Assembly (NCBI RefSeq): GCF_000374125.1
Contig: NZ_KB893625.1
Span: 840,945-904,944 of the forward strand
Direction of reading: 5' to 3'
Length of the DNA: 64,000 nt
Origin: Niabella aurantiaca DSM 17617
GTDB taxonomy: Bacteria; Bacteroidota; Bacteroidia; Chitinophagales; Chitinophagaceae
Part shown: positions 10,273 to 48,783 of the stretch, piece after piece
How positions within the stretch are numbered: the first letter of the stretch is position 1
Layout: each line of letters starts with the position of its first letter
The notes under the pieces: model-generated
The model's database searches: none
The model's input: the letters and a program-made list of their open reading frames with translations, nothing else
What the model was told of the DNA's origin: nothing
Translations under genes and position numbers: made by a program

Positions 10273-10276
10273 CCCG

Positions 10277-11686
10277 GTGAGCAAAATAAAAAGACAGAAC
10301 CACACAGGGTACCGGCTCCTCCGGTTGATGCTGCTGCTTTTTTGCAGCAGCGGGAGTATTACTGGAATCGCACAAACCACGAGGCCCAATATTGTATGGA
10401 TCATGACCGAGGATATGAGCCCGGAGCTGGGCTGTTACGGGTATCCCTATGTGCAAACACCCAACCTGGACCACCTTGCGGAAGACGGAAAGAAATTTAT
10501 ACGTATGTTTTCAACAGCGCCGGTTTGTTCGCCAAGCCGTTCTGCCATGATCACCGGTATGTACCAGACAACGATCGGCGCGCACCAACATCGCAGTCAC
10601 CGGGATGACGGATATCACTTGCCGGACCCGGTAAAGCCGATCACCGAGTACCTGAGATCGGCGGGTTATTATACATCGAATGGTACGTTGATTGGTGGTG
10701 GCGTGATCCGGGGAAAAGGGAAGACCGATTACAATTTCATGCTGGATAAAGAACCCTTTGACGGTTTTGACTGGGCCGCCCGCAAGCCCGGACAGCCGTT
10801 CTACGCCCAGCTGATGATACAGGTTACCCACCGCGGACCGGTATGGAAAACGGAGGTGCAAACGCATCAGCCGCAGATCGATGCATCAAAGCTGGTATTG
10901 CCTCCTTACTACCCGGATGATCCCATTGCAAAGGGCGACTGGGCTACTTACCTGGAATCGATCCAGCTGATGGATGATTATGTGGGCGGTATTTTAAAAC
11001 GACTGGATGATGAAGGTCTTTCAAAGAATACGGTGGTGATTTTCACAAGCGATCACGGAAGGTGTATGGTCCGGGATAAGCAATTTCTGTATGATGGTGG
11101 CATCCGGATCCCGTTGCTGATGCGCTGGCCCGGACAGCTGCCGGCAGGATCTGTAGATACGGACCTGCACAGCAGTATTGATATTTCGGCCACCATTTTA
11201 AAAATTACCGGCGCAACCCTTCCCTCATATCTGGAGGGGAAACCCTTCCTGGGAAAAAATGTATATAAGCGGCCGTACATCATTGCCGCGCGCGACCGGA
11301 TGGATGAAACCGTAGATAAAATGCGCTGTGTAAGAGGTCAGCGATTCAAATACATCAGGAATGATTACCCGGAACGACCCTACATGCAGCCCAATGCCTA
11401 TAAAGAAAGACAGTATCCCGTATGGAACCTGTTAAAACAGCTAAAGGCAGAAGGCAGGCTAACGCCTGCACAGTTATTGTTTACCGCAGACCATAAACCC
11501 CCGGAGGAATTGTATGACCTGTTAAAGGACCCCGATGAGCTTCATAACCTGGCAGCTGACCTGCTGTATAAAGAGCAGCTGGAAAAGATGCGGAACATTT
11601 TGCAGGCGTGGGTAAAGAAGACCAATGACCAGGGACAATACCCCGAAAAAAAGATCTGGCTGCCGGAGAAAAAGAATACCAGATAG
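10277..11686 (+). CDS. secreted sulfatase, sulfamidase (SGSH)-like subfamily, 469 aa
   Basis: Tandem paralogue of the preceding sulfatase, in the same operon. GTG is the chosen start: it gives the basic region MSKIKRQNHTGYR before the hydrophobic core (LLRLMLLLFCSSG), whereas the first ATG (10328) would leave a signal peptide with no positive charge. Active-site parts are TED (E45, D46), CSPSR (C84), KGKTDYNF in place of GKWH, and FTSDHGR, where the second metal motif has His instead of Asn. That DH is shared by some sulfamidase-like enzymes. Unlike its neighbour it has no C-terminal add-on and ends soon after DELHNLA, the usual sulfatase end. Substrate unknown; N- or O-sulfated amino-sugar residues are a reasonable guess. 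Confidence 0.9.
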   Translation: MSKIKRQNHTGYRLLRLMLLLFCSSGSITGIAQTTRPNIVWIMTEDMSPELGCYGYPYVQTPNLDHLAEDGKKFIRMFSTAPVCSPSRSAMITGMYQTTIGAHQHRSHRDDGYHLPDPVKPITEYLRSAGYYTSNGTLIGGGVIRGKGKTDYNFMLDKEPFDGFDWAARKPGQPFYAQLMIQVTHRGPVWKTEVQTHQPQIDASKLVLPPYYPDDPIAKGDWATYLESIQLMDDYVGGILKRLDDEGLSKNTVVIFTSDHGRCMVRDKQFLYDGGIRIPLLMRWPGQLPAGSVDTDLHSSIDISATILKITGATLPSYLEGKPFLGKNVYKRPYIIAARDRMDETVDKMRCVRGQRFKYIRNDYPERPYMQPNAYKERQYPVWNLLKQLKAEGRLTPAQLLFTADHKPPEELYDLLKDPDELHNLAADLLYKEQLEKMRNILQAWVKKTNDQGQYPEKKIWLPEKKNTR

Positions 11687-23018: not shown

Positions 23019-24512
23019 ATGAAAAGAACAGGTATCATCATTTCATTGCTGGCTGGCGCTATTTTTTTTGCAGGCGCGCAGCCCCAAACCACCATAAGCA
23101 GGTTAAAAGCCGTTGCCGGTGCAAAGAAAATGAATATTGTTTTTATCCTTACAGACGATCACCGGTACGACTTTATGGGATTCACCGGGAAACTTCCCTG
23201 GCTGAAGACGCCCAATATGGACCGGATGGCCGGGGAAGGAGCATATTTTGAGAACGCCTTTGTAACAACCGCATTATGCTCGCCAAGTAGGGCCTCCATC
23301 CTTACAGGTATGTATGCGCATGTGCATACCATTGTAGACAATCTTGCGGGCGAACCTTCGGGTCTGGTTTATTTTCCTCAATACCTTCAGCAGGCTGGAT
23401 ACCAGACTTCTTTTTTTGGCAAATGGCATATGGGCATCGCAGACCCGTATCCACGCCCGGGGTTCGATCACTGGGAAAGTTTTAAAGGACAGGGTATCTA
23501 TTACAACCCGGAATTAAATATCAACGGGAAGAAGGTTGCCTATGGGGACTCAGCATACATCACGGACCTGTTAACAGAACATGCCATTGATTGGCTGGAT
23601 AAAAGGGATAAGGGCAAACCATTCTTCTTGTATCTTTCTCATAAGGCTGTGCATTCTCCCTTAGCCCCGGCAAAAAGACATAAGGGCTTGTACAAAAACA
23701 GGGAATACCGGTTGCCCTCTACCTATTATCAAACGCTGAACGATGACTACAAGACATTGCGCTGGCCGGAATGGGTAAAACAGCAGCGGTACAGCTGGCA
23801 CGGGGTAGATTATCCTTACCATTCGCATCAGGATATCGGCGAAATCGTCCGGACCTATTGCGAAACCCTGATGGCCGTTGATGAAAGCGTGGGCACTATT
23901 ATGGATTACCTGAAGAAAAACGGCCTCAATCAAAATACGATGGTGGTTTATATGGGCGATAATGGTTTTAGCTGGGGTGAACATGGACTGATCGATAAAC
24001 GGCATTTTTATGAGGAGAGCGTAAAAGTGCCCTTTCTTGTTTACGCACCGGGGCTGTTAAAAGGCGGGAAGATTGTAAAGCAGATGATACAGAACATTGA
24101 TATCGCCCCCACCATTCTGGAACTTGCCGGTCTTAAAAAGCCGGATTATATGCCCGGAAGATCTTTTATACAATTGCTGAAAGGAGATACCATGGGTTGG
24201 CGCAAAAAGATTTTTTATGAATATTATTGGGAATATGATTACCCGATGACGCCCACGGTATTCGGAGTAAGAACAGACCGGTATAAGCTGATCCGTTACA
24301 TGGGTGTTTGGGATCAGAACGAATTGTACGACTTGCAGGAAGACCCCGATGAAAAAATGAACCTGATGGGTAAACCAGAGTATGAGGAGTTGGCAGGGCA
24401 GCTAACGGGAGATCTTTTTGACTGGCTGGAAACAACAAAGGGAATGCAGGTGCCTTTGAAGCGCACGGTTAAACATCCTTTTGGCGACTGGAAACATCCC
24501 GCACAATATTAG
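23019..24512 (+). CDS. secreted type I sulfatase, 497 aa
   Basis: Sulfate-ester hydrolase of the second PUL. Signal peptide 1-20 (FFAGA before QPQ). Active-site motifs: ILTDDHRYD (D46, D47), CSPSR (C87 to formylglycine, R91), FFGKWHMG, LSHKAVHSPLAP, MGDNGFSWGEHGL (second metal motif). The end LYDLQEDPDEKMNLMG is the usual sulfatase tail and is followed by about 40 further residues. It resembles the large heparan/arylsulfatase A-type group in which the long IDKRHFYEESVKVPF segment follows the DNG motif; subfamily and substrate not resolved. It follows the GH38-like gene by 37 bp, in the same operon. Confidence 0.93.
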   Translation: MKRTGIIISLLAGAIFFAGAQPQTTISRLKAVAGAKKMNIVFILTDDHRYDFMGFTGKLPWLKTPNMDRMAGEGAYFENAFVTTALCSPSRASILTGMYAHVHTIVDNLAGEPSGLVYFPQYLQQAGYQTSFFGKWHMGIADPYPRPGFDHWESFKGQGIYYNPELNINGKKVAYGDSAYITDLLTEHAIDWLDKRDKGKPFFLYLSHKAVHSPLAPAKRHKGLYKNREYRLPSTYYQTLNDDYKTLRWPEWVKQQRYSWHGVDYPYHSHQDIGEIVRTYCETLMAVDESVGTIMDYLKKNGLNQNTMVVYMGDNGFSWGEHGLIDKRHFYEESVKVPFLVYAPGLLKGGKIVKQMIQNIDIAPTILELAGLKKPDYMPGRSFIQLLKGDTMGWRKKIFYEYYWEYDYPMTPTVFGVRTDRYKLIRYMGVWDQNELYDLQEDPDEKMNLMGKPEYEELAGQLTGDLFDWLETTKGMQVPLKRTVKHPFGDWKHPAQY

Positions 24513-24609
24513 ATCACAAAGAAATCTACCGGGCATGCGGGCTTGCGTTAGTATTGTACCGCGCTCAGCCGCCTGATTCCATGCGGATAAAAAAGTCTTT
24601 TTATATACC

Positions 24610-26160
24610 ATGATGCATTCATTTACATCACGCATATTTTGCCTAATGACATGGGTGGTCTTCCTGACGGCCTGCAACGCAGTAAACAAAAAGTCGTCTG
24701 AACATTGGCCGAACGTCATTGTTGTTTATGTAGATGATCTGGGCTATGGTGACCTGGGTTGTTATGGGGCCACAGCCGTAAAAACGCCCAATGTTGACCA
24801 GCTGGCAGCGCAGGGCCTGCGCTTTACCGATGCACATGCAACGGCAGCCACCTGCACGCCATCGCGGTTTTCCCTGTTAACAGGCAGCTATGCTTTCAGG
24901 AACAATGCCGCGATATTGCCCGGCGATGCGCCCCTGCTCATCCGGCCGGGAACACCCACCATGCCCGGCATGTTTCAACGATCAGGGTATAAGACCGCCG
25001 TCATCGGTAAGTGGCACCTGGGTTTGGGCAATGGCACGCCCGACTGGAACGGGACGCTGAAACCGGGGCCCCTCGAAGTGGGGTTCAATTATTCCTTTAT
25101 CATTCCGGCTACACTGGACAGGGTGCCCACGGTGTACGTGGAAGATCATAAAGTGGCCAACCTGGATCCCAGCGATCCGATCAAAGTCGATTATCAAAAA
25201 AAGATCGGCGACTGGCCCACCGGGCTGGAACGGCCGGACCTGCTGAAATTTGGCGCAGACACACAGCACAGCAATACCATTACCGATGGCATCAGCCGGA
25301 TCGGGTATATGACCGGTGGAAAAGCCGCGCTCTGGAAAGATGAGGAAATGGCAGATAGGCTCATCCGGAAAACAGATACATTTATTGCAAAGAACCGGAA
25401 AGCCCCCTTCTTTTTATATTTTTCATTTACAGATATCCACGTGCCCCGCGATCCGGCTCCCCGTTTTAAAGGGAAAACAAAAATGGGCTCCCGCGGTGAT
25501 GCCATTGTACAGATGGATGGGTCCGTAGGTGCGCTGATGAAGATCCTTGAAAAGTACGGAGTAGCAGATAATACCCTCATCGTATTTACCAGCGATAACG
25601 GCGGGGTGCTGGATGATGGTTACAGCGATGATGCTGTGCGGCTTGCCGGAACACACGACCCCGCAGGCGGGCTTTCGGGGGGTAAATACAGCGCTTATGA
25701 GGCGGGTACCCGGGTGCCGGCAATCCTATGGTGGCCGGGAAGGATAGAGCCCGGCACCAGTGCGGCAATGATCAGCCAGGTAGATCTTTATGCTTCCTTT
25801 GCGGCATTGCTGGGGGAGCCCTTGCAGGCCAATGAAGCGCCGGACAGCGAAAATATGCTGGAAGCGTTACTGGGACGAACCGCAAAAGGACGCCGGGTGA
25901 TGCTGGAAGAATCGTTTACGATGGCATTGCGGGAGGGGCAATGGAAATATATTGCACCCCGGTCGGGCGCAACACCGGGCTGGCTGCAAAATAAAACCAT
26001 ACCCACCGGGCTTTCCGGACGCCCGCAGCTATATGATCTGGCCGGGGACATAAAAGAGCAAAACAACCAGGCTGCAGCCGATCCTCAAAGGGTAGCCGGG
26101 ATGCAAAAGATCCTGGAGGATCTTTTACAAAAGCCAACAAGAAAAGGATATGTTCCCTGA
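24610..26160 (+). CDS. type I sulfatase lipoprotein, 516 aa
   Basis: Second sulfatase of this operon. The leader ends VVFLTAC (Cys22), a good lipobox, so the enzyme is probably anchored. A doubled ATG makes 24610 or 24613 possible. Active-site motifs: VYVDDLGYGDLGCYG (D42, D43), CTPSR (C82, R86), GKWHLGLGNG, a substrate-side FSFTDIHVPRDP and FTSDNGGVLDDGY. The YGDLGCYG and AFRNN wording is that of arylsulfatase A / GalNAc-4-or-6-sulfatase-like enzymes. The tail LYDLAGDIKEQNNQAA is typical. Ninety-seven bases separate it from the previous sulfatase and 45 from the GH27 gene. Confidence 0.92.
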   Translation: MMHSFTSRIFCLMTWVVFLTACNAVNKKSSEHWPNVIVVYVDDLGYGDLGCYGATAVKTPNVDQLAAQGLRFTDAHATAATCTPSRFSLLTGSYAFRNNAAILPGDAPLLIRPGTPTMPGMFQRSGYKTAVIGKWHLGLGNGTPDWNGTLKPGPLEVGFNYSFIIPATLDRVPTVYVEDHKVANLDPSDPIKVDYQKKIGDWPTGLERPDLLKFGADTQHSNTITDGISRIGYMTGGKAALWKDEEMADRLIRKTDTFIAKNRKAPFFLYFSFTDIHVPRDPAPRFKGKTKMGSRGDAIVQMDGSVGALMKILEKYGVADNTLIVFTSDNGGVLDDGYSDDAVRLAGTHDPAGGLSGGKYSAYEAGTRVPAILWWPGRIEPGTSAAMISQVDLYASFAALLGEPLQANEAPDSENMLEALLGRTAKGRRVMLEESFTMALREGQWKYIAPRSGATPGWLQNKTIPTGLSGRPQLYDLAGDIKEQNNQAAADPQRVAGMQKILEDLLQKPTRKGYVP

Positions 26161-27465: not shown

Positions 27466-27538
27466 AGTTCTGCAGTTTCGCAATTATGATTTTATAACTA
27501 GGCGGCCGACCTTTTACATGTTCCTCTGAAGGATAAAA

Positions 27539-27785
27539 AAACGGTATTTCTTACCTGGCGGAATTAAAAAAGGAATTGCGCCAAGGATTGAGCATAAGCG
27601 CGGCATTGCCTTTGCAGCCTTTATGGGACCGGCCCTTGTTACGTCCGACGGCTGGAAGCTGCGGTATTCTGCTCCTAAAAAAATTATACCAATTGTATTA
27701 CCTGCCAAAAGATGGTAAGGAGCAGTACGATCTTTCTGCTCAAAGTCCTGGGAAATTAAAGGTACTGCAAAAAGCAGGAAAATGA
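27539..27785 (+). pseudogene. 3' remnant of a sulfatase with a frameshift
   Basis: Two plus-strand frames join into one sulfatase C-terminus. Frame one reads GGIKKGIAPRIEHKRGIAFA, then FMGPALVTSDGWKLRYSAPKK; at the A7 run (27677-27683) it shifts, and frame two continues LYQLYYLPKDGKEQYDLSAQ, then SPGKLKVLQKAGK and a stop at 27783-27785. The D-W-KLRY...QLYYLP-D-KEQYDLS pattern is the normal sulfatase tail, and removing one A from the run restores a single frame. No catalytic domain with a CxPxR motif remains upstream, so most of the gene has been lost. The rest of the 547-bp gap (27466-28012) shows nothing gene-like. Confidence 0.65.
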
Positions 27786-27950
27786 AGGAAAATCAATCCC
27801 CAAACCTATTCAATTCTTTCGTACAATTCGCTGAATGGAACAACTTTGGATGGGTTGAACGGAATTTTTCAGGAGTATATTCGGTCCAGCTTTGTTAAAA
27901 ATATCTAAAACAATAGTATAAAGGGTCATGTGTCGTCTCTTAAATAGGGG

Positions 27951-27974
27951 ATTTCAGTTGCAGCGAGCTGAAAT
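27951..27974. terminator. possible terminator hairpin before the cytochrome module
   Basis: Arms ATTTCAG (27951-27957) and CTGAAAT (27968-27974) with a 10-base loop, followed by GATTTTCAATTTTTG. The T-run is broken and the stem is AT-rich, so this is a weak call. It would separate the second PUL from the redox module starting at 28013. Confidence 0.3.
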
Positions 27975-28012
27975 GATTTTCAATTTTTGATGTTTTATAA
28001 CTTGCTATTGTA

Positions 28013-30337
28013 ATGAAGCTTAAAATTACGATATTGATGGTTTTGCTTGTGGGCTGCCTGCTATTTTTCTTAACACCGGGGTGCCGGAATAGCTTTGGAA
28101 AGACCGCTGCAAAGAATAAGATCAGTTATAATTACGATGTACGTCCTATTCTTTCGGATAAATGCTTTGCCTGTCACGGTCCCGACAAAAACAAGCAGGA
28201 GGCAGGTTTACGATTGGATATTGAGAAATTTGCGAAAGCGCCATTGAAAGAAACCAAGGGGGCTTTTGCTATTGTTGAAGGGAAACCAGGGGAGTCCGAG
28301 CTGATTAAAAGAATTACTTCTACGGACCAGGCCTACCAGATGCCTACGCCGGAATCTCATTTAGGCCTGCTCCACGAGGATGAAATAGCCATCCTGACAA
28401 AATGGATTGAACAGGGCGCCCCCTACGAAAAACACTGGGCATTTATTACGCCGCAAAAAGCGCCTTTGCCTGAAATAGATAATAATGAATGGGCTATAAA
28501 TGAAATAGATTATTTCATTGCAGCTAAAATGCAATCCAAAAATTTTGAACCCAATGAAGAAGCGGATAAGGAAACATTGTTAAAAAGAGTTTCATTAGAC
28601 CTTACAGGCCTGCTGCCCGACCTGGCCCTGCAAAAAGAGTTTGAAGCGGATAAAACGGAAGCCAGCTATGAAAAAATGGTAGATAAATTGCTGGCAACCC
28701 CTCAATATGGAGAAAAGATGGCTATTCACTGGTTGGATGTTTCGAGGTACGCCGACAGTTATGGCTACCAGGATGATGACCGCCGAACGCAATGGCCTTA
28801 TCGCGACTGGGTGATTTATGCATTTAACAAAAATATGCACTATGACCAGTTTCTTACCTGGCAGCTTGCGGGGGATATGCTGCCCGATTCATCGAAAGAA
28901 AAGATACTGGCCACCGCTTTTTTGCGCAATCATAAATATACCGAGGAAGGGGGCGTTATTCCCGAAGAATACAGGGTTGAGTATAACCTTGATAAAGTAA
29001 AAACGTATACAAAGGGTGTATTGGGCCTTACGGTTGAATGTGCACAGTGCCACGATCATAAATACGACCCTGTTTCACAGAAGGACTATTATAAAATGTT
29101 TGCATTTTTTAATAACAGCCGGGAAAAAGGACTGGAGGGCCTGGTAAACTCTCAGCCTGCCAAAACCCCGATTCTATACATATCGGATGATGATACTAAA
29201 AACCTGCTGACCTTTATTAACAGGAAAGACACGGGCATGCTGCAGGTATCGGTGATGGGAGAACTGAGGGACTCGATGCGTACCACCTATATCCTCGAAA
29301 GGGGCGTTTACGATCAGCACGGAGAAGTAGTTACCGCCGGGGCGCTGCCGGCTGTAATGGAGTATGACACGACCCGATACCCCAAAAACAGGCTGGGCCT
29401 GGCAAAATGGACCATCGATAAAAAGAACCCGCTAACGGCCCGTGTATTTGTAAACCAGCTATGGGCGCTGTTTTTTGGCAAAGGCATCGTAAAATCGGTA
29501 GGCGATTTTGGCATGCAGGGCAATCTTCCCACCCATCCTGAGTTGCTCGACTGGCTGGCTGCGGATTTTATGGAGCATGACTGGGATATTAAAAGGCTGA
29601 TCAAGAAAATAGTAACCTCGGCCACCTACAGGCAATCGTCGGCAATTAAACAGGAGCATCTGGATAAGGATCCCGAGAACCTGTACTATGCGCGGGCCTC
29701 CCGCATCAGGTTGCCGGCAGAAACGATACGCGATGTAGTATTGGGCAGCAGCGGGCTGCTGGTGAAAGAAATTGGCGGCCCGAGTGTAAAACCTTATCAG
29801 CCGAAAGGACTTTGGGAAAGTGCCACTTCGGGAAGGGGATCGCTTCGGGTTTACCGGCAGGATAAAGGAACCAGTTTATACAGGCGAGGTATTTATACCT
29901 TTATTAAGTTGACCGTTCCGCCCCCATCCATGATCATTTTTGATGCCAGTAACAGGGATCAGTGCGAGGTGCAGCGTTTAAAGACCAGTACTCCATTGCA
30001 GGCGTTGGTGATGATGAACGATCCAACCGTTTTGGAAGCTTCGAGGGTTTTGGGGGAAACCCTTTCCGAAAAACAAAAAAACGCTAATGAAGCGATTACC
30101 ACGGCATTTAAAAGAATTATTTGCCGAACCCCGAGTGACAGCGAGTTGGATATACTGAACAGGTACTATAAACAGCAGCTCGACTTATTTGACCAGGATC
30201 GTAATGCTGTTAAAAATGTAATAGATGTGGGGGAATATTCCCATAACGGAAGCGCGGCCAACACTGTAAAGGCAGCAGCGCTCATGCGTGTGATCAATAT
30301 GATCTATAATATGGAGGAGGCTATTGTTAGAACCTAG
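28013..30337 (+). CDS. PSCyt1-DUF1549-DUF1553 haem lipoprotein (planctomycete-type cytochrome)
   Basis: Large exported c-type cytochrome of a family abundant in Planctomycetes and Verrucomicrobia. Lipobox FFLTPGC (Cys24). N-terminal PSCyt1 domain with haem motif CFACH (51-55) and the GPDKNKQEAGLRLD phrase, then DUF1549 with VDKLLATPQYGEKMAIHWLD, a second haem motif CAQCH (343-347) followed by DHKYDP, then DUF1553 (GLAKWTIDKKNPLTARVFVN, LFFGKGIVKSVGDFG, THPELLDWLAADF, RLPAETIRDVVL). 774 aa is normal for the three-domain form. The next genes are the DUF1501 partner, a propeller and a membrane PSCyt1 protein, the usual company. The reaction is not established; oxidation of a sugar-derived product with electron delivery to the membrane is an inference. 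Confidence 0.92.
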   Translation: MKLKITILMVLLVGCLLFFLTPGCRNSFGKTAAKNKISYNYDVRPILSDKCFACHGPDKNKQEAGLRLDIEKFAKAPLKETKGAFAIVEGKPGESELIKRITSTDQAYQMPTPESHLGLLHEDEIAILTKWIEQGAPYEKHWAFITPQKAPLPEIDNNEWAINEIDYFIAAKMQSKNFEPNEEADKETLLKRVSLDLTGLLPDLALQKEFEADKTEASYEKMVDKLLATPQYGEKMAIHWLDVSRYADSYGYQDDDRRTQWPYRDWVIYAFNKNMHYDQFLTWQLAGDMLPDSSKEKILATAFLRNHKYTEEGGVIPEEYRVEYNLDKVKTYTKGVLGLTVECAQCHDHKYDPVSQKDYYKMFAFFNNSREKGLEGLVNSQPAKTPILYISDDDTKNLLTFINRKDTGMLQVSVMGELRDSMRTTYILERGVYDQHGEVVTAGALPAVMEYDTTRYPKNRLGLAKWTIDKKNPLTARVFVNQLWALFFGKGIVKSVGDFGMQGNLPTHPELLDWLAADFMEHDWDIKRLIKKIVTSATYRQSSAIKQEHLDKDPENLYYARASRIRLPAETIRDVVLGSSGLLVKEIGGPSVKPYQPKGLWESATSGRGSLRVYRQDKGTSLYRRGIYTFIKLTVPPPSMIIFDASNRDQCEVQRLKTSTPLQALVMMNDPTVLEASRVLGETLSEKQKNANEAITTAFKRIICRTPSDSELDILNRYYKQQLDLFDQDRNAVKNVIDVGEYSHNGSAANTVKAAALMRVINMIYNMEEAIVRT

Positions 30338-30369
30338 GGTCATATCAATCTGAAATTGTCGCCACAAAG

Positions 30370-30396
30370 GCCCGTTCGTCCGGAAACCGGGCGGGC
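30370..30396. repeat. nested GC-rich inverted repeat between DUF1553 and DUF1501 genes
   Basis: GCCCG (30370-30374) pairs with CGGGC (30392-30396), and inside it CCGG (30380-30383) with CCGG (30387-30390) around AAA. No T-run follows. It could tune expression between the two genes (attenuation or mRNA stability). Confidence 0.35.
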
Positions 30397-30455
30397 ACCA
30401 GGTTTCTAAGTTTTTTGAGCATGAAAGAACCGTCACGATTCGAAAAAAAAAAGAT

Positions 30456-31904
30456 ATGGAAAAAGAACAGCTGGAACATGGATTAAATATAAATCGCCGC
30501 CGGTTTCTCACCAACCTGGGGATGGGTATCGGCGGGGCGGCCCTGGGAAGTTTATTGATACCCGATTTTTTTTCAGCAAAAGATGCAGAAGAGGCGATTG
30601 TTTCAGGCTTGCCGCATTTTGCACCCAGGGCAAAGCGGATCATCTACCTTTTTCAGAATGGAGGTCCCTCACAGCTCGAAACATTTGATCCCAAACCCAA
30701 GTTGCGGGAAATGCAGGGCCAGGATCTTCCCGAATCGGTGCGCCAGGGTCAGCGCCTTACCGGGATGACTTCGGGGCAATCGAAATTTCCCTTAGCAGGC
30801 AGCTTGTTTTCCTTTGATCAGTATGGTGAGCGCCGGGCCTGGGTTAGCGAACTGCTTCCTTATACGGCGCGCATTGTGGATGACCTGTGTATTGTAAGAA
30901 GCATGTATACCGAGGCCATCAATCACGACCCGGCATTGACCTTCTTTCAAACCGGGGCACAGGTTGGGAACCGCCCGAGTATGGGCGCCTGGTTGAGTTA
31001 CGGTTTGGGAAGTGAAAATAAAAATCTACCGGCATTTTGTGTATTGCTTTCTAAGGGTAAGGGCAATGGCCAGGGCGTATATTCCAAACTCTGGTCAAAC
31101 GGGTTTTTAGACTCTATTCACCAGGGCGTACAGTTTAGCAATGGAGAAAACCCGGTGCTTTATTTAAAAGATCCCGATGGTATGAGTAAGGAAGAGCGCC
31201 GGAATATGCTGGATCACCTTTCCGAATTAAATAATGAAGGCTATGACGAGGCGGGCGACCCCGAAATCAAAGCCAAGGTACAGCAATATGAAATGGCCTT
31301 CCGCATGCAAACTGCCGTGCCAGAAGTAACCGATCTTAGCAAAGAACCCGAGTCCATTATCAAGCTTTACGGCCCCGAATGCCTGATACCCGGTACCTAT
31401 GCCGCCAACTGCCTGCTGGCAAGAAAACTTTCTGAAGGCGGCGTGCGCTTTGTGCAGCTGTATCACCAGGGATGGGATTCGCATGGTAACCTGCCTGAGC
31501 AAATGAGGGGGCAATGTATGGATACCGACCAGGCTTCGGCCGCTCTGGTAACCGACCTGAAGCAAAGGGGGCTGCTGGATGAAACCCTGGTTATCTGGGG
31601 AGGGGAATTTGGGCGCACCAATTATTGCCAGGGCACCCTTACAAAAGACAATTATGGTCGCGATCATCACCCGCGGTGCTTTACCATGTGGATGGCCGGT
31701 GGTGGCATAAAACCCGGCGTATATGGCGAAACCGATGAATTTGGGTATAATATTGTTTCCAATCCCGTTCACGTGCACGATTTCCAGGCTACCGCGCTTC
31801 ATTTAATGGGGCTCGATCATGAAAAGCTGGTGTATAAACATTTGGGCCGAAGATACCGGCTGACCGATGTGTCCGGTAAGGTAGTAAAAGATTTAATTGC
31901 TTAA
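30456..31904 (+). CDS. DUF1501 family protein, Tat-type signal
   Basis: Constant partner of DUF1549/DUF1553 proteins; the fold belongs to the alkaline phosphatase/sulfatase superfamily. The N-terminus NINRRRFLTNLGMGIGGAAL is a twin-arginine signal (RRRFL at 14-18), so export is probably folded, perhaps with a bound cofactor or metal. Typical DUF1501 segments are IIYLFQNGGPSQLETFDPKP, GQRLTGMTSGQSKFPLAGS, VRSMYTEAINHDPALTFFQT, GVRFVQLYHQGWDSHGN, VIWGGEFGRTNYCQ, and YGRDHHPRCFTMWMAGGGIK. The acid and histidine pattern (D, H, DHHP) is compatible with a metal site. It starts 118 bp after the cytochrome gene and ends 10 bp before the propeller gene. Biochemical activity unknown. Confidence 0.93.
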   Translation: MEKEQLEHGLNINRRRFLTNLGMGIGGAALGSLLIPDFFSAKDAEEAIVSGLPHFAPRAKRIIYLFQNGGPSQLETFDPKPKLREMQGQDLPESVRQGQRLTGMTSGQSKFPLAGSLFSFDQYGERRAWVSELLPYTARIVDDLCIVRSMYTEAINHDPALTFFQTGAQVGNRPSMGAWLSYGLGSENKNLPAFCVLLSKGKGNGQGVYSKLWSNGFLDSIHQGVQFSNGENPVLYLKDPDGMSKEERRNMLDHLSELNNEGYDEAGDPEIKAKVQQYEMAFRMQTAVPEVTDLSKEPESIIKLYGPECLIPGTYAANCLLARKLSEGGVRFVQLYHQGWDSHGNLPEQMRGQCMDTDQASAALVTDLKQRGLLDETLVIWGGEFGRTNYCQGTLTKDNYGRDHHPRCFTMWMAGGGIKPGVYGETDEFGYNIVSNPVHVHDFQATALHLMGLDHEKLVYKHLGRRYRLTDVSGKVVKDLIA

Positions 31905-31914
31905 CTAAAATGAG

Positions 31915-32940
31915 ATGAACAGGAAAACCTTTCTTCAATATACCGCCCTGGGCACGATGGGCGCTTTATACATGCCGGAATGGTTGATTAAAAATAAGGT
32001 GATTTTGGGACAGGGCGATAAACGGTACAGGCTGGACACCAGGTGGAGCCGTGCCGATGTCTCGAAATACCCGGTAGACGATTGTCATGAAATGGTGCAG
32101 GACCGCAAAGGTCGTATTTTGCTGCTGACCAATGATACCCATAACAATGTTATTTTTTATAGTAAAAATGGTAAGTACTTAAAATCCTGGGGTACCGAAT
32201 ATCCCGGGGCACATGGGCTTACGCTCTTTAACGAGGGAGGGGAGGACATTTTGTTTATTTGTGATAATAAGCGGCACCAGGTGATCAAAACCACCATCGA
32301 CGGCCGGGTGCTGCTGACATTGAAGTATCCTAAGGAAACCGGTAGTTATACCAGGGCCGAAGAATATATACCCACTGAAACAGCCATCGCAGACAATGGG
32401 GATATTTATGTGGCAGACGGGTATGGAAAAGATTTTGTGATACAGTACGACTATAAAGGCAAATACATCCGGCATTTCGGAGGCCGGGGCGCCAGCGCCG
32501 GGAACTTGTTAAATGCCCACGGGATATGTATGGACAGGCGCGTGGGTACGCCGGTTTTGATGGTAACCTCAAGAAAACAAAATGCATTGAAGCGATATAC
32601 CATGGAGGGTGTATACTTAGATACCATTGAGCTCCCGGGCGCGTGGGTGTGCAGGCCGGTGATTAAAGACGATTATTTATATGCGGCGGTACTGAAAAGC
32701 AAATCTCAGCCATCCGGGAAATCGGGGTTTGTAACGATCCTGGATAGAAACAATAAAGTAATATCCAACCTGGCTGGCAATCAGCCTGAGTACATAGACG
32801 GCCGGTTAAAGGAAATGTATCAAACCGTCAATGCCTTTGAACATCCACACGATGTTTGCATAGATAATGAAGATAACCTGTATGTAGCACAATGGAATTC
32901 AGGGAAAGTATATCCTTATAAATTAGAACGGGTAGTGTGA
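31915..32940 (+). CDS. NHL/six-bladed beta-propeller protein, 341 aa
   Basis: Likely periplasmic propeller that binds a ligand or scaffolds the haem module. The leader MNRKTFLQYTALGTMGALYM is signal-like and resembles a degenerate Tat signal (only R-K before the T-F-L). Repeating blades are visible: VQDRKGRILLLTNDTHNNVI, FYSKNGKYLKSWG, YPGAHGLTLF, PTETAIADNGDIYVADGYG, QYDYKGKYIRHFGGRGASAG, NLLNAHGICMDRRVGTPVLM and HPHDVCIDNEDNLYVAQWNS. The G-K-Y-(L/I)-x-x-(W/F)-G and H-G-(L/I) signatures are those of NHL propellers of the 6-bladed 6-phosphogluconolactonase/SMP30 look. No catalytic residue can be assigned. It is translationally coupled to the next gene. Confidence 0.88.
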   Translation: MNRKTFLQYTALGTMGALYMPEWLIKNKVILGQGDKRYRLDTRWSRADVSKYPVDDCHEMVQDRKGRILLLTNDTHNNVIFYSKNGKYLKSWGTEYPGAHGLTLFNEGGEDILFICDNKRHQVIKTTIDGRVLLTLKYPKETGSYTRAEEYIPTETAIADNGDIYVADGYGKDFVIQYDYKGKYIRHFGGRGASAGNLLNAHGICMDRRVGTPVLMVTSRKQNALKRYTMEGVYLDTIELPGAWVCRPVIKDDYLYAAVLKSKSQPSGKSGFVTILDRNNKVISNLAGNQPEYIDGRLKEMYQTVNAFEHPHDVCIDNEDNLYVAQWNSGKVYPYKLERVV

Positions 32941-32945
32941 AAATT

Positions 32946-35204
32946 ATGAAGCAACAGAACTGGCAGCGTTTTTTTTTTAATGTATGTATTGTTTTAAACT
33001 GCCTTCTGGCAGTCTTGCTGATTTTTGGAAGTGAGTTTGTGGTTCCCCCTTTTTTGCAGGCATTTGGGAGGGCGCACCCCCTGCTGCTGCATTTTCCCAT
33101 TGTATTGCTTTTGTTGGCTTTTTTATTCGAAATGCTGATCGTATCGCCCAAACAGATAACATTCCAAACGAGTGCAGACTGGATGCTGCTGGCGGCAGTA
33201 TTGACTACGGTTAGTGCCGCTTTAATGGGATTGTTTTTGTCGAAAGAGGGCGGCTACGAAAGTAATGACCTGACTATACACAAATGGACCGGTGTGATGT
33301 GCGCGTTTATAAGCTTTACCTGGTACACGCTCAAATCGTTTATTAGAAAAAGCAAGCTATTAACTGCTGCTACCGGCATTTTTACAACCGTCATACTATT
33401 AATAGCGGGTCACAAAGGTGCGGGTATTACGCACGGGGAGGAGTTTTTGTTGTCACCGTTATTCGCAACAGCAGAAACTGCTGCTGACATTTCACTGGAT
33501 GATGCGGTGGTATATACGCACCTGGTACAACCTATTATTGAAAAAAAATGCATGAGTTGCCATAATACTAATAAAGCCAAGGGCGAATTGATTATGGCAA
33601 CCCGGGAACTGCTGCTGAAAGGTGGAAAAAGCGGGAAGCTTTGGGATACTTCGGCGGTTGATTTGGGTTTGATGATGCAACGGATTCACCTGCCGGCCGA
33701 CCACAAAGAGCACATGCCGCCGGAGGGAAAACCACAGCTTACCGACGAAGAAGCGCGTATATTGTATTTATGGATAAAAGGCGGGGCCAGCTTTACTGCA
33801 AAGGTAACCGAACTGCCTGCAAGCGACTCATTAAGGTTGCTCGCAGCCACATTCTTCAAATCTGGGGATGCTGAAAAATATGATTTTGAGGCGGCCGATG
33901 AAAGTGCTGTCAGTCGTTTGAATACCGAATACAGGATCATAACTCCGCTCGCAACAGGATCGCCGGCGCTTTCCGTGAATTTTTATGGTGTATCGCAATT
34001 TAAAGGAGCCCAGCTGGCCGAACTCAGCAGTATAAAAAATAATATCGTTTCCCTTCATTTGGGTGGCATGCCGGTTAAAGATGAAGACTTAAAAACGATT
34101 GGCGAATTTGTGAACCTGCGGGATCTGAACCTGACTTTTACTAAAATCAATGGCGAAGGGCTGAAATATTTGTCCGGACTTCAACACCTCAGGCAGATTT
34201 CACTTTCAGGAACCGGGATCCATATCAACCGGTTAAGGCCATTAGCACAATTGAAAAATCTGAGGTCAGTAAGCCTGTGGAACACATCAATCGATAATAA
34301 GGATATGGCATCATTGAAAAATAGTTTTCCCCGTGTCAGCTTCGATCTGGGTTATAAAGGCGATACCGTAGTCGCTGTGTTAGCACCACCGGTTATAGAT
34401 ATTGATGAAGAAAAAAGAGTTTTTGATCAATCGCTTTCCGTGGTTCTTAAAAGCCCTGTAAGTGCTGCTAAAATCAGGTACACCACCGATGGCAGTGAAC
34501 CGGACAGTATTAGCTCCCCTTTATATAAAAAACCGATCAATATAGATCAGTCGCTGATAATAAAAGCAAGAGCTTTTTTACCGGACTGGATCAGCAGTAA
34601 AACGGTATCTGTGAGTTTTTATAAAAACAGTATAAAGGCAGATAGTATTTATTTAACAACGCTTCCCGAGCAGAAATTTGTTGCAGATGCACGAAATGGT
34701 AATGCCTTTACTGATCAGCTTTTGGGAACAGCCGACGCCGGAGCTGCAAATTGGATTGGATACAAGCTCAACGATTTTGCAGCATTTTTGCTATTCAAAA
34801 AAGCTGTTGTTATTAACAGCATCACCTTCGGAACCCTTATTGATGTTTCGAGGACCATTTTTCCCCCGGCTGAAATACAGGTATGGGGCGGGGCCGACAG
34901 CGGTTCTTTAAAATTATTAGCAACCGTCAAGCCAGCCCAACCCACCGTTCGGCAGCCGCCCTATATTACAGGTATTAAGTGTATATTACCTTCGCAGCCG
35001 GTTAAGATGATCAAACTGGTGGCAAAGCGGGTTCTGAAAATACCTGTTCTGAAAAACCCGGTGCCTAATGAGCAGCAGGCCAGCAAGCAGCAACTTAAAG
35101 CGAAGTCCGCTAATAAGCAGCAGCAGCCTAAGGCTCCCAAAAGTAAAAGACCTAAAGCTAACCCCGCAGGAGTAATCTATTTTGATGAGATACTATTAAA
35201 TTAG
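32946..35204 (+). CDS. membrane DUF2231-PSCyt1-LRR-CHB-discoidin protein
   Basis: Membrane anchor and possible electron conduit of the module. ATG 32946 is preferred to the GTG at 32937 that overlaps the previous stop. Order of parts: about five transmembrane helices forming a DUF2231-like domain (RAHPLLLHFPIVLLLLAFLF, then WMLLAAVLTTVSAALMGLFL, ending GHKGAGITHGEE); PSCyt1 domain with haem motif CMSCH and HMPPEGKPQLTDEEARILYL; about four leucine-rich repeats (NLRDLNLTFTKINGEGLKYL, HLRQISLSGTGIHI); a CHB_HEX_C_1-like domain (KIRYTTDGSEPDS); and a discoidin-like C-terminus (NWIGYKLNDFAAFLLFKKAV), with a Lys/Gln-rich linker before the last VIYFDEILLN. Its stop codon overlaps that of the convergent cytochrome gene by 4 bp. 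Confidence 0.9.
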   Translation: MKQQNWQRFFFNVCIVLNCLLAVLLIFGSEFVVPPFLQAFGRAHPLLLHFPIVLLLLAFLFEMLIVSPKQITFQTSADWMLLAAVLTTVSAALMGLFLSKEGGYESNDLTIHKWTGVMCAFISFTWYTLKSFIRKSKLLTAATGIFTTVILLIAGHKGAGITHGEEFLLSPLFATAETAADISLDDAVVYTHLVQPIIEKKCMSCHNTNKAKGELIMATRELLLKGGKSGKLWDTSAVDLGLMMQRIHLPADHKEHMPPEGKPQLTDEEARILYLWIKGGASFTAKVTELPASDSLRLLAATFFKSGDAEKYDFEAADESAVSRLNTEYRIITPLATGSPALSVNFYGVSQFKGAQLAELSSIKNNIVSLHLGGMPVKDEDLKTIGEFVNLRDLNLTFTKINGEGLKYLSGLQHLRQISLSGTGIHINRLRPLAQLKNLRSVSLWNTSIDNKDMASLKNSFPRVSFDLGYKGDTVVAVLAPPVIDIDEEKRVFDQSLSVVLKSPVSAAKIRYTTDGSEPDSISSPLYKKPINIDQSLIIKARAFLPDWISSKTVSVSFYKNSIKADSIYLTTLPEQKFVADARNGNAFTDQLLGTADAGAANWIGYKLNDFAAFLLFKKAVVINSITFGTLIDVSRTIFPPAEIQVWGGADSGSLKLLATVKPAQPTVRQPPYITGIKCILPSQPVKMIKLVAKRVLKIPVLKNPVPNEQQASKQQLKAKSANKQQQPKAPKSKRPKANPAGVIYFDEILLN

Positions 35205-35623
35205 CGTTGGTCTAACGAGAGAATATAGGTGGCCATCATTTGAGCATCTTCTTTTGACAACCCGGGATGCGGCGTCATTACTGAATATCCCCAGCTTCCT
35301 CTGCCGCCGGAAATTATTTTGTTGGCGAGATATTCAATATAGGCCTGGTGCACGGGATACCTTTTGGCAATATCCATGAAAGCAGGCCCCTTCGACCTGT
35401 CTTTTTCCTTGTGACAGGACAAACAATCTGAATAGCCCACCAGCACTTCCCCTTTTTGAGCTATTGGCGCCGATATGCCATCATCCTTACCTGGAATGGT
35501 CTTTATATAATCGTTTGTTTTAGAAACAAGCTTTTCTTGTTTTGGTTGGTTGTTACAGCTGAATAAAGCTCCTGTGATAAATAGCAGACAGGCAATCAAA
35601 AATAGCTTTTTAGTGCTGTACAT
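35201..35623 (-). CDS. small c-type cytochrome lipoprotein
   Basis: Single-haem class I cytochrome, probably the soluble-side electron acceptor of the redox module. ATG 35623 is chosen: it gives MYSTKKLFLIACLLFITGALFSC with a clean lipobox (Cys about 23); an upstream in-frame ATG would add an unlikely charged leader. Haem motif CLSCHKE, then GPAFMDIAKRY and the Met-ligand region GSWGYSVMTPHPGLS, and a final helix DAQMMATYILSL. It is convergent with the preceding membrane gene, and the two stop codons overlap. Confidence 0.92.
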   Translation of the reverse strand: MYSTKKLFLIACLLFITGALFSCNNQPKQEKLVSKTNDYIKTIPGKDDGISAPIAQKGEVLVGYSDCLSCHKEKDRSKGPAFMDIAKRYPVHQAYIEYLANKIISGGRGSWGYSVMTPHPGLSKEDAQMMATYILSLDQR

Positions 35624-35741
35624 CTTATCTAAATTTCTGCGAAAGTATGGCATTGTTGTATATTGACGCATTTTGAATATATCTGTTTGAAAAAAAAATG
35701 GAGGTTGTTTTGATTTTTTTGTTTACGGTGCAAAATCAATG

Positions 35742-45563: not shown

Positions 45564-47408
45564 TTAGTTGTTGCTTTCTAAACTCTTCATAAAAGCAATG
45601 ATCTCTTCTTTTTCTTTTTCAGTAAGACCAAGCTTTTCTCCGGGAAGTGTTTGATTGGGCAGCGATATTCGCAACCCTGCGGCGCCCCCGTTATTATAGA
45701 ATTCCATTACCTGGTCCAAAGTTTCGTACACCCCATTGTGCATATAAGGAGCTGTTCTGTCAACATTCCGGATCGTAGGGATCTTGAACGCATGTTTGCA
45801 GGACTCAACACCGATCACATCGTAATAGCCCTGATCCGGGTCCAGCGTGGAGTCTGCCATGGATGCGGGGACGCCCAATACCTCGGTTTCGCTCACAACA
45901 TATTTGGGTGGGGTGACCCCGTTGAATAAAGGAATAAAATGACAGGTGGCACATTTTGCTTTCCCCATAAACAGATTGAAGCCTTTCAATTCCTGTGCTG
46001 ATAAAGCCCCTTCATTACCCCGCATATATTCGTCGAACCGGCTGTTGAGCTTTGTAAGACTACGCACATAAGACGCGAGCGCATTCGCGACCTGGTCCGG
46101 ACTGATTTCTTTTTCAATTGATCCGGGAAATGCGTTTGCGAATAGCGACGTATATGATTTGCTCGCTGAAACATACCGTATGATCGCATCCATCGAACCA
46201 TCCATCTCCTGTTGATTCCTGATCACATCACGCGTCTGGTCCTCCAGCGTCAATGCCCGCATATCATAAAAGTAGTTCGATTGCAGTGCAGCGTTGAGTA
46301 ATGTTGGAACATTCCGTTTCAGCAGCTTTGCAGGATCGTGCAAAGCCGTATTCTTAGCCAGCCCGTCCGTAAATGCCTGTTGGGGGCGGTGACAGGATGC
46401 GCAGCTTCTGGTGCCGGTACCGGATAACGAGGCATCATAAAAAAGTTTTTTGCCCAATGCTACTTTAGCGGCAGTTGTATGAAATGAAGGGCCGGGAGAA
46501 AATGCATCCACATTGAAGGCGTCCGGGTCAAACAATGTTCCGGCTCCCTGCTTCAGCAACCGGTTGTAGCGGATTTTCGGTCCCGGCAAGGCTTGTTCCA
46601 GTTGTGCTATTCCGGTGCTGATCTTATTTGCGAAACGGGTAATGAATACCGCTCTGTCGAAGGAAGCAAAGTCGGAATGCTGGTGCAGGTACCCGATGGC
46701 GGTATCCAGGTCCTGTAATAAAGCCGTTTTGTTGTTTTTACTTATATAGGAGGATAGCATGTTCCGCATGCTTTTTAAGGATGCGGCCGATTCTTCCATA
46801 CTGTTCAGGGAAAGCGCATTGTCAAACCCCGTAATGCCCAGGGCCACGATCCGGAATACCTCTAACTTGGCGGCATCCAGGATCCGCCAATCGGCAAGCG
46901 GATGATCGGCGAAATAACCAACCAGGTATTCAGTGTTGGTTATTAAATGCGCTACTTCGCTGATCAGTGCTTCTTTACCGGCAGCATTATACTCCGGATA
47001 AAGAAAGGGCTCAATTACCTGCAGCCCCACAGGATCAATGGCCCGTGCCAAAGAGGGGTCTAACAGGTCGGCATTCTCGATCTCCTGTACCGGCGGACCA
47101 TTTAACCGCTCCGCCAGGTCGGCCGCAAAATATGTTGCGGCCCATTCAAATTCCTTGTACAGGGATCTTGATCTTAAAAAGGCCCGGCGAACCATGAGCG
47201 TATCTGCCGGCTCTTTGTTGACGGCTGCAAAGAAACTGTCTCTTACATAATCCCGGAAGGAAACGATCTGGTGGAAGACGTTTTCCCGGATCTCCCGTTC
47301 ACGCCGGCCGGGCCGGGTTTGTGCTGTACGATCCGTATAAAAGGGGGTGAAGCTTGCAATGAATAGCCCCGTAAACAGCATGAACACTATGGCCATCTTT
47401 TTATGCAT
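45564..47408 (-). CDS. MauG/CcpA-type di-haem cytochrome c peroxidase with N-terminal extension
   Basis: Periplasmic peroxidase-like enzyme. ATG 47408 (MHKKMAIVFMLFTGLFIASF) is chosen over an upstream in-frame start whose leader lies outside a signal-peptide shape. The first 300 residues are helical, without haem motifs, and not recognised. Then the CCP domain: LGKKLFYDASLSGTGTRSCA with haem motif CASCH (336-340), DGSMDAIIRYV linker, second haem motif CATCH (486-490), and RTAPYMHNGVYETLDQVMEF. Both haems are present, so it is probably active. Bacterial CCPs are normally about 350 aa; the extra N-terminal region is notable. It follows the phosphoesterase gene by about 28 bp on the same strand. 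Confidence 0.9.
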   Translation of the reverse strand: MHKKMAIVFMLFTGLFIASFTPFYTDRTAQTRPGRREREIRENVFHQIVSFRDYVRDSFFAAVNKEPADTLMVRRAFLRSRSLYKEFEWAATYFAADLAERLNGPPVQEIENADLLDPSLARAIDPVGLQVIEPFLYPEYNAAGKEALISEVAHLITNTEYLVGYFADHPLADWRILDAAKLEVFRIVALGITGFDNALSLNSMEESAASLKSMRNMLSSYISKNNKTALLQDLDTAIGYLHQHSDFASFDRAVFITRFANKISTGIAQLEQALPGPKIRYNRLLKQGAGTLFDPDAFNVDAFSPGPSFHTTAAKVALGKKLFYDASLSGTGTRSCASCHRPQQAFTDGLAKNTALHDPAKLLKRNVPTLLNAALQSNYFYDMRALTLEDQTRDVIRNQQEMDGSMDAIIRYVSASKSYTSLFANAFPGSIEKEISPDQVANALASYVRSLTKLNSRFDEYMRGNEGALSAQELKGFNLFMGKAKCATCHFIPLFNGVTPPKYVVSETEVLGVPASMADSTLDPDQGYYDVIGVESCKHAFKIPTIRNVDRTAPYMHNGVYETLDQVMEFYNNGGAAGLRISLPNQTLPGEKLGLTEKEKEEIIAFMKSLESNN

Positions 47409-47436
47409 ATTGCATCTCCTTCCTGGTCGCCAATAT

Positions 47437-48783
47437 TTATTTAAAGACCAGGGCATTCCGGAACGGGCTGGCATTTTTATCCCGTTCGGCCAATGGCGTT
47501 ATTCCCCATCTATGTTCTATAAATGAAAGAATGCTGACGGTTTCATATTGGGTGTGATCTACATGCCCTTTTTTAGCAAAGGGCCCTATAACAATAGCAG
47601 GAATGCGGCTTCCCGGGCCCCACCGGTCAATAACCGGGGGCGCTACATGGTCAAAGTAACCACCAAACTCATCATAAGTGAGGATCACCAGCGCGTCCTT
47701 TGCATTGGGCCCCTCTAATACGGCATTGATCAGTTTTACTGCCAGTTGTTCCGAAGAGTATACATCGGAGCTGCCGGGATGTTCGTCATTTCCCCCACCG
47801 GGCTTCACAAAAGAAACGCTGGGCAATGATCCTTCTTTCGCCGCCTTCAGGAAATCGTTTTGATCCTTCATGTGCTTTCTGCCTTCTGTTCCGTCTTCAT
47901 AGTTGGTAAAATACAGGAAGGGCTCGTGGTTATAAGCAAAATTATTTTTTCTTCCGGCCACTGCATCGTCCCATCCTTCTGAATACCATGCCCAGGATAC
48001 TCCTTTTTCACTCAGCCGGTCGCCAATGGTCGGCATCGTCTGCGAGGGCAGTAATTTGGAAATATCCGATTTGGCCGGGTATGGCTTGTTGCGGGAAAGA
48101 ACATGGTTAACGGCATAGCCATCAGGTGTAACGATGCCGTCCTTTACCATATTTCCGTTATCGTCCAGTTTAGCGATCAATGATGCCGGGGCATCCTGCC
48201 AAACCGGGGCAGCTGCTGAAATTAAATAGACGTGGTTAAAATAAGAGCCGCCAAAGACGCTCTGGAAGAAGTTGTCGCACAAGGTGTATTTTTTGGCCAT
48301 CGTATACAAAGGCAGCTTTTTAGTTGTATAATAGCCCATTGCCAGTCCTCTGGAATCGTTATATGCTGCAAACTGATCCATCTTTCCGCCGTGAATCTGC
48401 AACTGGTTATGAAAAAAACGGTGCGTAACATCCGGTGTTTTTTTATCAGATGGAACGTATTGGTCGATATTAAAAAGCTTATTGGGCAAATTGGTCGGGA
48501 ATGAATTGTTCCTCGGGATCTCGGGCAGGTATTTATAGGGTATTCCTTTTTCGTCGACCTGGACAAAGTTTCCTTTTTGGGCATTTTTAATACCGTTCGC
48601 CCCTTTGAACTCACCATACAGGTTATCGAAACTATGGTTCTCCATATAGACCACCACAACGTGATTGATCTGGTGGATCCCTTCATCAAAGGAGATGGGC
48701 TGCCGTTGCGCCTTCCTGCCGGTTCCGCAACTATTGAGTCCCAGGATAACAAAGAGGATAAAAAAAAGCCGTTGTACTGTCAT
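47437..48783 (-). CDS. phospholipase C/acid phosphatase-type phosphoesterase lipoprotein
   Basis: Exported phosphoesterase of the AcpA/PLC superfamily (non-specific phospholipase C or acid phosphatase). Lipobox FVILGLNSC (Cys19). Motifs: VVVYMENHSFDNLYGEFKGA at the N-terminus, KYTLCDNFFQSVFGGSYFNH, a later PGGGNDEHPGSSDVYSSEQL and ILTYDEFGGYFDHVAPP with metal-binding Asp/Glu/His, and HRWGITPLAERDKNAS at the C-terminus. Cotranscribed with the peroxidase. Phosphate scavenging is a plausible role, as an inference. Confidence 0.9.
   Translation of the reverse strand: MTVQRLFFILFVILGLNSCGTGRKAQRQPISFDEGIHQINHVVVVYMENHSFDNLYGEFKGANGIKNAQKGNFVQVDEKGIPYKYLPEIPRNNSFPTNLPNKLFNIDQYVPSDKKTPDVTHRFFHNQLQIHGGKMDQFAAYNDSRGLAMGYYTTKKLPLYTMAKKYTLCDNFFQSVFGGSYFNHVYLISAAAPVWQDAPASLIAKLDDNGNMVKDGIVTPDGYAVNHVLSRNKPYPAKSDISKLLPSQTMPTIGDRLSEKGVSWAWYSEGWDDAVAGRKNNFAYNHEPFLYFTNYEDGTEGRKHMKDQNDFLKAAKEGSLPSVSFVKPGGGNDEHPGSSDVYSSEQLAVKLINAVLEGPNAKDALVILTYDEFGGYFDHVAPPVIDRWGPGSRIPAIVIGPFAKKGHVDHTQYETVSILSFIEHRWGITPLAERDKNASPFRNALVFK

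Follow-up and report, generated by a model that had tools for sequence, protein, structure and literature searches.

Five genes for haem proteins and their partners, lying in a 64,000-nucleotide stretch of the Niabella aurantiaca DSM 17617 genome (the window; positions 840945-904944 of contig C1 in a 5.93 Mb genome of 25 contigs), belong to a widespread and already known kind of gene set in which a PSCyt/PSD1 haem protein accompanies a DUF1501 protein. The constant part of the set is the DUF1549–DUF1501 pair, which is joined in close loci by a DUF2231 membrane protein with a cytochrome domain (the DUF2231 cytochrome below). The module is tentatively read, with a probability of about 40%, as a periplasmic, membrane-attached electron-transfer complex that would oxidise sugars and would not be tied to sulfation. 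A first-pass annotation of the window had placed the five families in order, with two CxxCH motifs in the first protein and one each in the DUF2231 protein and a small cytochrome, a DUF1501 protein of the twin-arginine translocation (Tat) type, genes that overlap or nearly touch and a convergent last pair. Open reading frames and Pfam matches agree with all of this. The features are:

28013-30337, plus strand: DUF1549/DUF1553 (PSCyt1-PSCyt2-PSD1) dihaem protein, 774 residues (open reading frame and Pfam)
30456-31904, plus strand: DUF1501 protein, 482 residues, with twin-arginine motif (open reading frame and Pfam)
31915-32940, plus strand: NHL-type, 6-bladed beta-propeller, 341 residues (open reading frame and Pfam)
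32937-35204, plus strand: DUF2231 membrane protein with PSCyt1 haem domain, 755 residues, GTG start (open reading frame and Pfam)
35201-35671, minus strand: small class I cytochrome c, c551/c552-like (open reading frame and Pfam Cytochrom_C)
27482-27742, plus strand: 3′ remnant of a decayed sulfatase gene, no longer in a single open frame
L085:7946-14600, contig C2 of the same genome: second module type

The core of the module and its copies

The relatives surveyed are the best 80 of at least 584 confirmed stretches that hold DUF1501 relatives, so the survey samples near relatives; the DUF1501 reading frame was recovered in 79 of them (L066 is the exception). Among these the closest locus is that of Pedobacter ghigonis, with 85% DUF1501 identity, and in a DUF1501 tree the window clusters with genomes of its own genus, near loci of Chitinophagaceae and other Bacteroidota. 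DUF1549 is immediately upstream of DUF1501 in 73/79 loci, a pairing that is not due to chance, and the pair is also present in a Verrucomicrobiales locus (L057). With DUF1501 identity of 70% or more, DUF1549 is directly upstream in all 31 loci, and the DUF2231 cytochrome is within four genes in all 29 that have at least three downstream genes. The NHL gene is less regular, being within three genes downstream in 10 of the 29 and upstream in two. Below 70% identity DUF1549 is still directly upstream in 42 of 48 loci. In one of 72 loci a gene labelled as the small cytochrome lies at most five genes downstream. The core in close relatives is therefore DUF1549–DUF1501–DUF2231 cytochrome with the propeller optional, and a unit of five genes was rejected since both propeller and small cytochrome are optional in relatives. 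What survives of the proposal of a single five-gene electron-transfer machine is the conserved three-gene core, for which electron transfer is reasonable.

That last judgement comes from the dihaem protein, where two CxxCH motifs are retained in 81 of the 85 DUF1549 proteins longer than 650 residues. All three of its domains lie on one protein above their Pfam cut-offs (54, 280.3 and 330.4 bits for PSCyt1, PSCyt2 and PSD1, against 22, 29.8 and 28.5). The motifs begin at residues 51 and 343. For the first haem, C51, C54, H55 and M110 are kept in 48 of 51 aligned relatives, the other three rows being gapped; around the second, C343, C346, H347, H349, D352 and P353 are kept in 51/51 and Thr340 is also invariant. 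The protein is possibly a lipoprotein, judging from a Cys24 present in 40/51 relatives, although just 13 of the 51 fit a simple lipobox pattern. Its predicted structure has a mean predicted local distance difference test (pLDDT) value of 85.9 and a predicted template-modelling score (pTM) of 0.87. Three sequence relatives were found in the PDB, for the PSCyt1 part alone, the best being FoxE (8.5e-5).

The DUF2231 protein has four hydrophobic segments and a PSCyt1 haem domain with CxxCH at 205; Pfam also recognises Fn3_assoc and CHB_HEX_C_1 in it (a leucine-rich-repeat match is weak and below cut-off). Haem attachment motifs are intact in the module proteins, and relatives conserve all three that belong to the core. 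For the propeller, TRIM-type NHL proteins and peptidyl-glycine amidating enzyme match weakly and are uninformative. The small cytochrome (CxxCH at residue 83) matches c551/c552 structures. Its relatives at 60–62% identity, on contig C2 of the same genome and in three others (G022, G030 and G034), have neither module genes nor sulfatases around them in the DNA examined; standing alone in this way, they place the protein outside the conserved core, and it is read as a general carrier.

Genes 1 and 2 are 118 bases apart and genes 2 and 3 are 10 bases apart; genes 3 and 4 overlap by 4 bases, as do the convergent genes 4 and 5 (an alternative in-frame ATG puts the end of the cytochrome gene at 35623). 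A promoter scan of 27466-28100 with the Bacteroidota consensus gave a single −7-like match, within coding sequence. CxxCH motifs also occur elsewhere on the contig: a minus-strand frame of 636 residues at 45564-47474 of the window has two, and a frame of 752 residues upstream of the window (L087:2622-4880) has eight.

The genome has three PSD1 genes, on contigs C1 (the window), C15 and C2; PSD1 was found in 12 of the 17 genus genomes examined and in 16 of 59 relatives. The C15 copy (L084) has the same four genes and its DUF1501 is 88% identical to that of the window. One gene past its DUF2231 end, and converging on it, is a COX1 haem-copper oxidase gene (L084:4883-6772). The C2 copy is the second module type, which recurs in congeners. 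Its DUF1549 protein has 916 residues and a sub-threshold CBM6 match (24.2 bits, cut-off 28.9), a DUF1501 gene is present, a PF01261 TIM barrel with a Tat signal occupies the place of the propeller, and its PSCyt1 membrane protein fails to reach Pfam DUF2231; a GH3 gene and two PF10091 genes are in the neighbourhood. Nine distinct sequences of the barrel all have E168, D196, H226 and E275, which are presumably metal ligands, an assignment made by eye. A sequence search of the PDB with the barrel found nothing at E 0.01.

DUF1501 and its alternative partner

The identity of the second core protein is firm (Pfam DUF1501, 2.3e-153, 511.4 bits), and its twin arginines, R14 and R15, are present in 66/66 relatives. 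The family was described as biochemically uncharacterised in a 2015 paper (PMC4452313). The predicted structure (pLDDT 77.9, pTM 0.81) retrieves arylsulfatases and their relatives with Foldseek, 106 matches having E of 0.001 or less, of which the best has E 2.6e-6 and a template-modelling score of just 0.34. Consistent with this, hhalign matches the C-terminal part to the five sulfatases of the window at E 6.5e-7. DUF1501 is thus predicted to have a sulfatase-like fold of the alkaline phosphatase superfamily.

The formylglycine motif of S1 sulfatases is C/S-x-P/A-x-R, and C87, P89 and R91 are invariant in the five window sulfatases. In a global alignment with a probability of 40%, the DUF1501 sequence NHDPAL stands opposite CSPSRA with His157 on the Cys, and Glu384-Phe385 stands opposite the sulfatase Asp-Asn. 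His157 is invariant in 66/66 relatives. DUF1501 thus lacks the formylglycine motif, with His apparently at the position of the catalytic Cys.

A fourth, divergent DUF1501 of the same genome, on contig C22, is paired with DUF1800 (L086:7247-9983), which is directly upstream on the same strand. No CxxCH was present in any of the 30 DUF1800 reading frames examined, and no cytochrome gene is beside this copy. Asp341, His343, Glu384, Arg387, Asp403 and His404 are common to the two DUF1501 types; at position 157 MAFFT tentatively places Pro in the DUF1800-partnered type. The fold, the haem-free partner and these common residues all favour a different function, in which DUF1501 is a hydrolase or transferase of phosphate or sulfate esters and the haem partner does no more than sense redox state or peroxide, or scavenge it. 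The His and the Glu-Phe at the sulfatase catalytic positions, within the reliability of that alignment, and the full invariance around the partner's second haem argue against it, and it is considered unlikely.

The two partners of DUF1501 may themselves be related. In an hhalign comparison that used 50 DUF1800 sequences, DUF1800 residues 242-303 align with residues 465-544 of DUF1549/1553, some 60 residues in all (score 47.8, E 7.2e-5, probability 63%); when the PSD1 set is broadened the score becomes 42.9, with E 3.3e-4 and probability 38%. Decoys, among them haem-domain families, scored 28.3 or less, the DUF2231 cytochrome being set aside because its haem domain explains its score of 167.7 against DUF1549. 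That DUF1553 and DUF1800 have a part in common is a lead from profile comparison, not proof.

PMC5122149 reports that in bacteria DUF1800-DUF1501 genes occur alongside those for chitin synthase and a sugar epimerase. Together with the stretch that DUF1553 and DUF1800 may have in common and the variable neighbours of the module, this would suit a cell-envelope or biosynthetic role, such as polysaccharide modification, rather than catabolism. Contexts with glycoside hydrolases, SusC/SusD (13/80 loci) and sulfatases exist, though, and the number of PSD1 matches in three genomes (50, 47 and 57 in G081, G083 and G084, whose loci are titled Acidobacteria, Aminicenantes and Acidobacteriota) fits substrate variety better, so that an envelope role seems improbable.

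Sulfatase neighbours inside and outside the genus

The first-pass annotation had the module directly following a six-sulfatase region and took this to suggest oxidation of a sugar released from sulfated glycan. Sulfatases do adjoin the module, but the region has five PF00884 genes, with sulfatase genes at 8644-11686 and 23019-26160, and in addition the decayed fragment. A wider claim, that the module is the redox arm of sulfatase loci and specific for sulfated glycans, fares poorly outside the genus. The genomes of 20 close loci, about 120 Mb together, contain 397 PF00884 matches (a sum made by hand), a density that with about 14 kb of flank per locus predicts roughly one sulfatase among the 20; a single locus, L010, has one within about 10 kb. 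Sulfatases occur in 7 of 82 loci other than the window, in a survey with a profile hidden Markov model made from 16 seeds, by which divergent sulfatases could be missed. In the N. aurantiaca genome 12.9% of positions have a sulfatase within 10 kb, as does one of the three module copies. No sulfatase is present beside the C15 and C2 copies in the DNA examined (the C15 contig ends 1.8 kb upstream) or beside the same-family copies L134-L136. In the Acidobacteriota genome, two of 40 listed PSD1 copies (57 in all) are within 10 kb of a sulfatase, where 3.5 are expected. On the locus survey, the genome density and this one copy-rich genome, a general linkage of module and sulfatases was rejected outside the genus. 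The lack of linkage in other genomes, which the first-pass annotation had named among the results that would count against it, thus holds outside the genus and not within it.

Inside the genus the picture differs. Ten copies of the window's type, the window included, were compared. All three with the convergent small cytochrome (the window, L132 and L133) adjoin sulfatases, versus none of the seven without it (L084 and L126-L131) in the DNA examined; L084 has 1.8 kb upstream, L132 is on a 9.7 kb contig and L129 has broken reading frames. The count leaves out the more distant copies L137 and L138, and G023 and G032, where the PSD1 matches are weak or interrupted. In a DUF1501 tree of 26 rows (without L129), the window falls outside the other eight genus rows and L132 pairs with L133. 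The supports at the forks are 89/77 and 94/92, not starred, and the topology allows either one inherited state or two events.

The sulfatases beside the cytochrome-bearing copies are just 24–33% alike between the window and its congeners. Contig C19 of the N. aurantiaca genome carries another sulfatase locus, to which each of the three copies has a link. The sulfatase upstream of L133 (genome G028) is 82% identical to one in that locus; L132 (genome G036) ends in a truncated gene whose 103 comparable residues are 74% identical to another gene there; and in the gap 27466-28012 of the window, the fragment at 27482-27742 is 77% identical over 264 columns to a third C19 sulfatase (L200:13903-15531). 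The fragment may mark the border of a rearrangement. From these likenesses, a historical tie within the genus between the cytochrome-bearing module and the C19 sulfatase locus is likely.

The genus pattern and the C19 likenesses, with a sulfatase-PSCyt neighbourhood reported for lake Verrucomicrobia in PMC5615132, are what a sulfated-glycan-specific function has in its favour. Against it stand the chance-level survey and copy-rich genome, the copies without sulfatases, the low likeness of the sulfatases themselves and the chance that the genus pattern is one inherited state; it is judged improbable. As an argument, the sulfatase neighbours carry little weight in general and have modest support within the genus. 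Since most relatives carry the module without sulfatases, the adjacency here says little about substrate.

Proposed electron path and comparison with known systems

In the preferred reading of a sugar-oxidising complex attached to the inner membrane, DUF1501 would dock on DUF1553 and bind the substrate, with a metal site perhaps involved. Electrons would be accepted by the second DUF1549 haem, which has Thr340, His349, Asp352 and Pro353 around it, and would pass to the first haem, on to the PSCyt1 domain of the DUF2231 protein in the membrane and so to the respiratory chain, either directly or via a c551-like carrier. The substrate would be a sugar or oligosaccharide, with sulfation not required. 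A sugar is proposed because of the carbohydrate-type accessory domains (Fn3_assoc and CHB_HEX_C_1 in the window, the sub-threshold CBM6 in the C2 paralogue), the PF01261 barrel with its conserved Glu-Asp-His-Glu and the glycan-related contexts (glycoside hydrolase, SusC/SusD, sulfatase) of some loci. Of the idea of a sugar released from sulfated glycan, then, the carbohydrate link gains support and the appeal to sulfatase neighbours fails as a general rule. The PF01261 family is taken to include a 3-keto-glycoside eliminase. A protein annotated as a sugar phosphate isomerase is a proven enzyme of this activity (PMC10628242). Given this known cleavage and the sugar-isomerase-type barrel of the sister module, the sugar may be oxidised to a keto sugar.

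Several results weigh against this reading. The main weakness is that a Pfam scan of the five proteins found no flavin, pyrroloquinoline quinone (PQQ), nicotinamide adenine dinucleotide (NAD) or molybdenum oxidoreductase domain, and oxidation without any of these would be unusual chemistry. When the DUF1549/1553 model was compared with the PDB by Foldseek, nothing matched convincingly (best E 0.18, probability 0.06), and hence no mechanism can be borrowed; the pairing of DUF1501 with haem-free DUF1800 means that the DUF1501 reaction need not be redox. Of 43 loci below 70% DUF1501 identity, 17 have the DUF2231 cytochrome among the next four genes downstream. Neighbour families that are not part of the module each occur in at most 10 of 83 loci (SusC leads with 10, window included), which leaves no substrate indicated; the module looks like a portable island.

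A bolder version, which is doubtful, would make DUF1549/1553 with DUF1501 a new class of sugar oxidase, combining covalent haem with a subunit of alkaline phosphatase fold and using no flavin, PQQ or NAD; it would produce keto sugars for elimination by the exported TIM barrel, and DUF1800-DUF1501 would be its haem-free sister system. Though PSCyt/PSD1 reaches 57 matches per genome, searches by family name in open-licence literature (subscription literature falls mostly outside) found no tested function for these families. The compact Bacteroidota version, with three core genes and in cultured lineages, is a small system for testing function, and the TIM-barrel variant offers a concrete chemical hypothesis.

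Among known systems, Cbp2D of Cellvibrio is like the module in having a c-type haem and a carbohydrate-binding part with a proposed role in feeding polysaccharide oxidases; the accessible portion of its description (PMC8981238) gives it YceI-like, FN3 and DUF1587 domains, not the DUF1549/1553 of the module, and makes no mention of DUF1501. S1 sulfatases have the predicted fold in common with DUF1501, which apparently has His for their modified Cys and Glu-Phe for Asp-Asn. The DUF1800-DUF1501 pair resembles the window in having the partner upstream of DUF1501 and is unlike it in that DUF1800 is haem-free and no cytochrome adjoins. Closest are the PSCyt1/PSCyt2/PSD1-DUF1501 clusters of Planctomycetes and Verrucomicrobia, which have the same domains and, in the Verrucomicrobiales locus, the same DUF1549-DUF1501 pair. 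A carbohydrate role is not new, as it was proposed earlier for Verrucomicrobia from the PSCyt-PSD gene organisation, members with carbohydrate-binding modules and nearby sulfatases (PMC5615132). The N. aurantiaca genome has three copies, whereas Rhodopirellula baltica has 41 occurrences each of DUF1553 and DUF1549 according to PMC2754498. The close Bacteroidota loci differ from the planctomycete-type clusters in their extra DUF2231-PSCyt1 cytochrome and, often, an NHL propeller or a TIM barrel.

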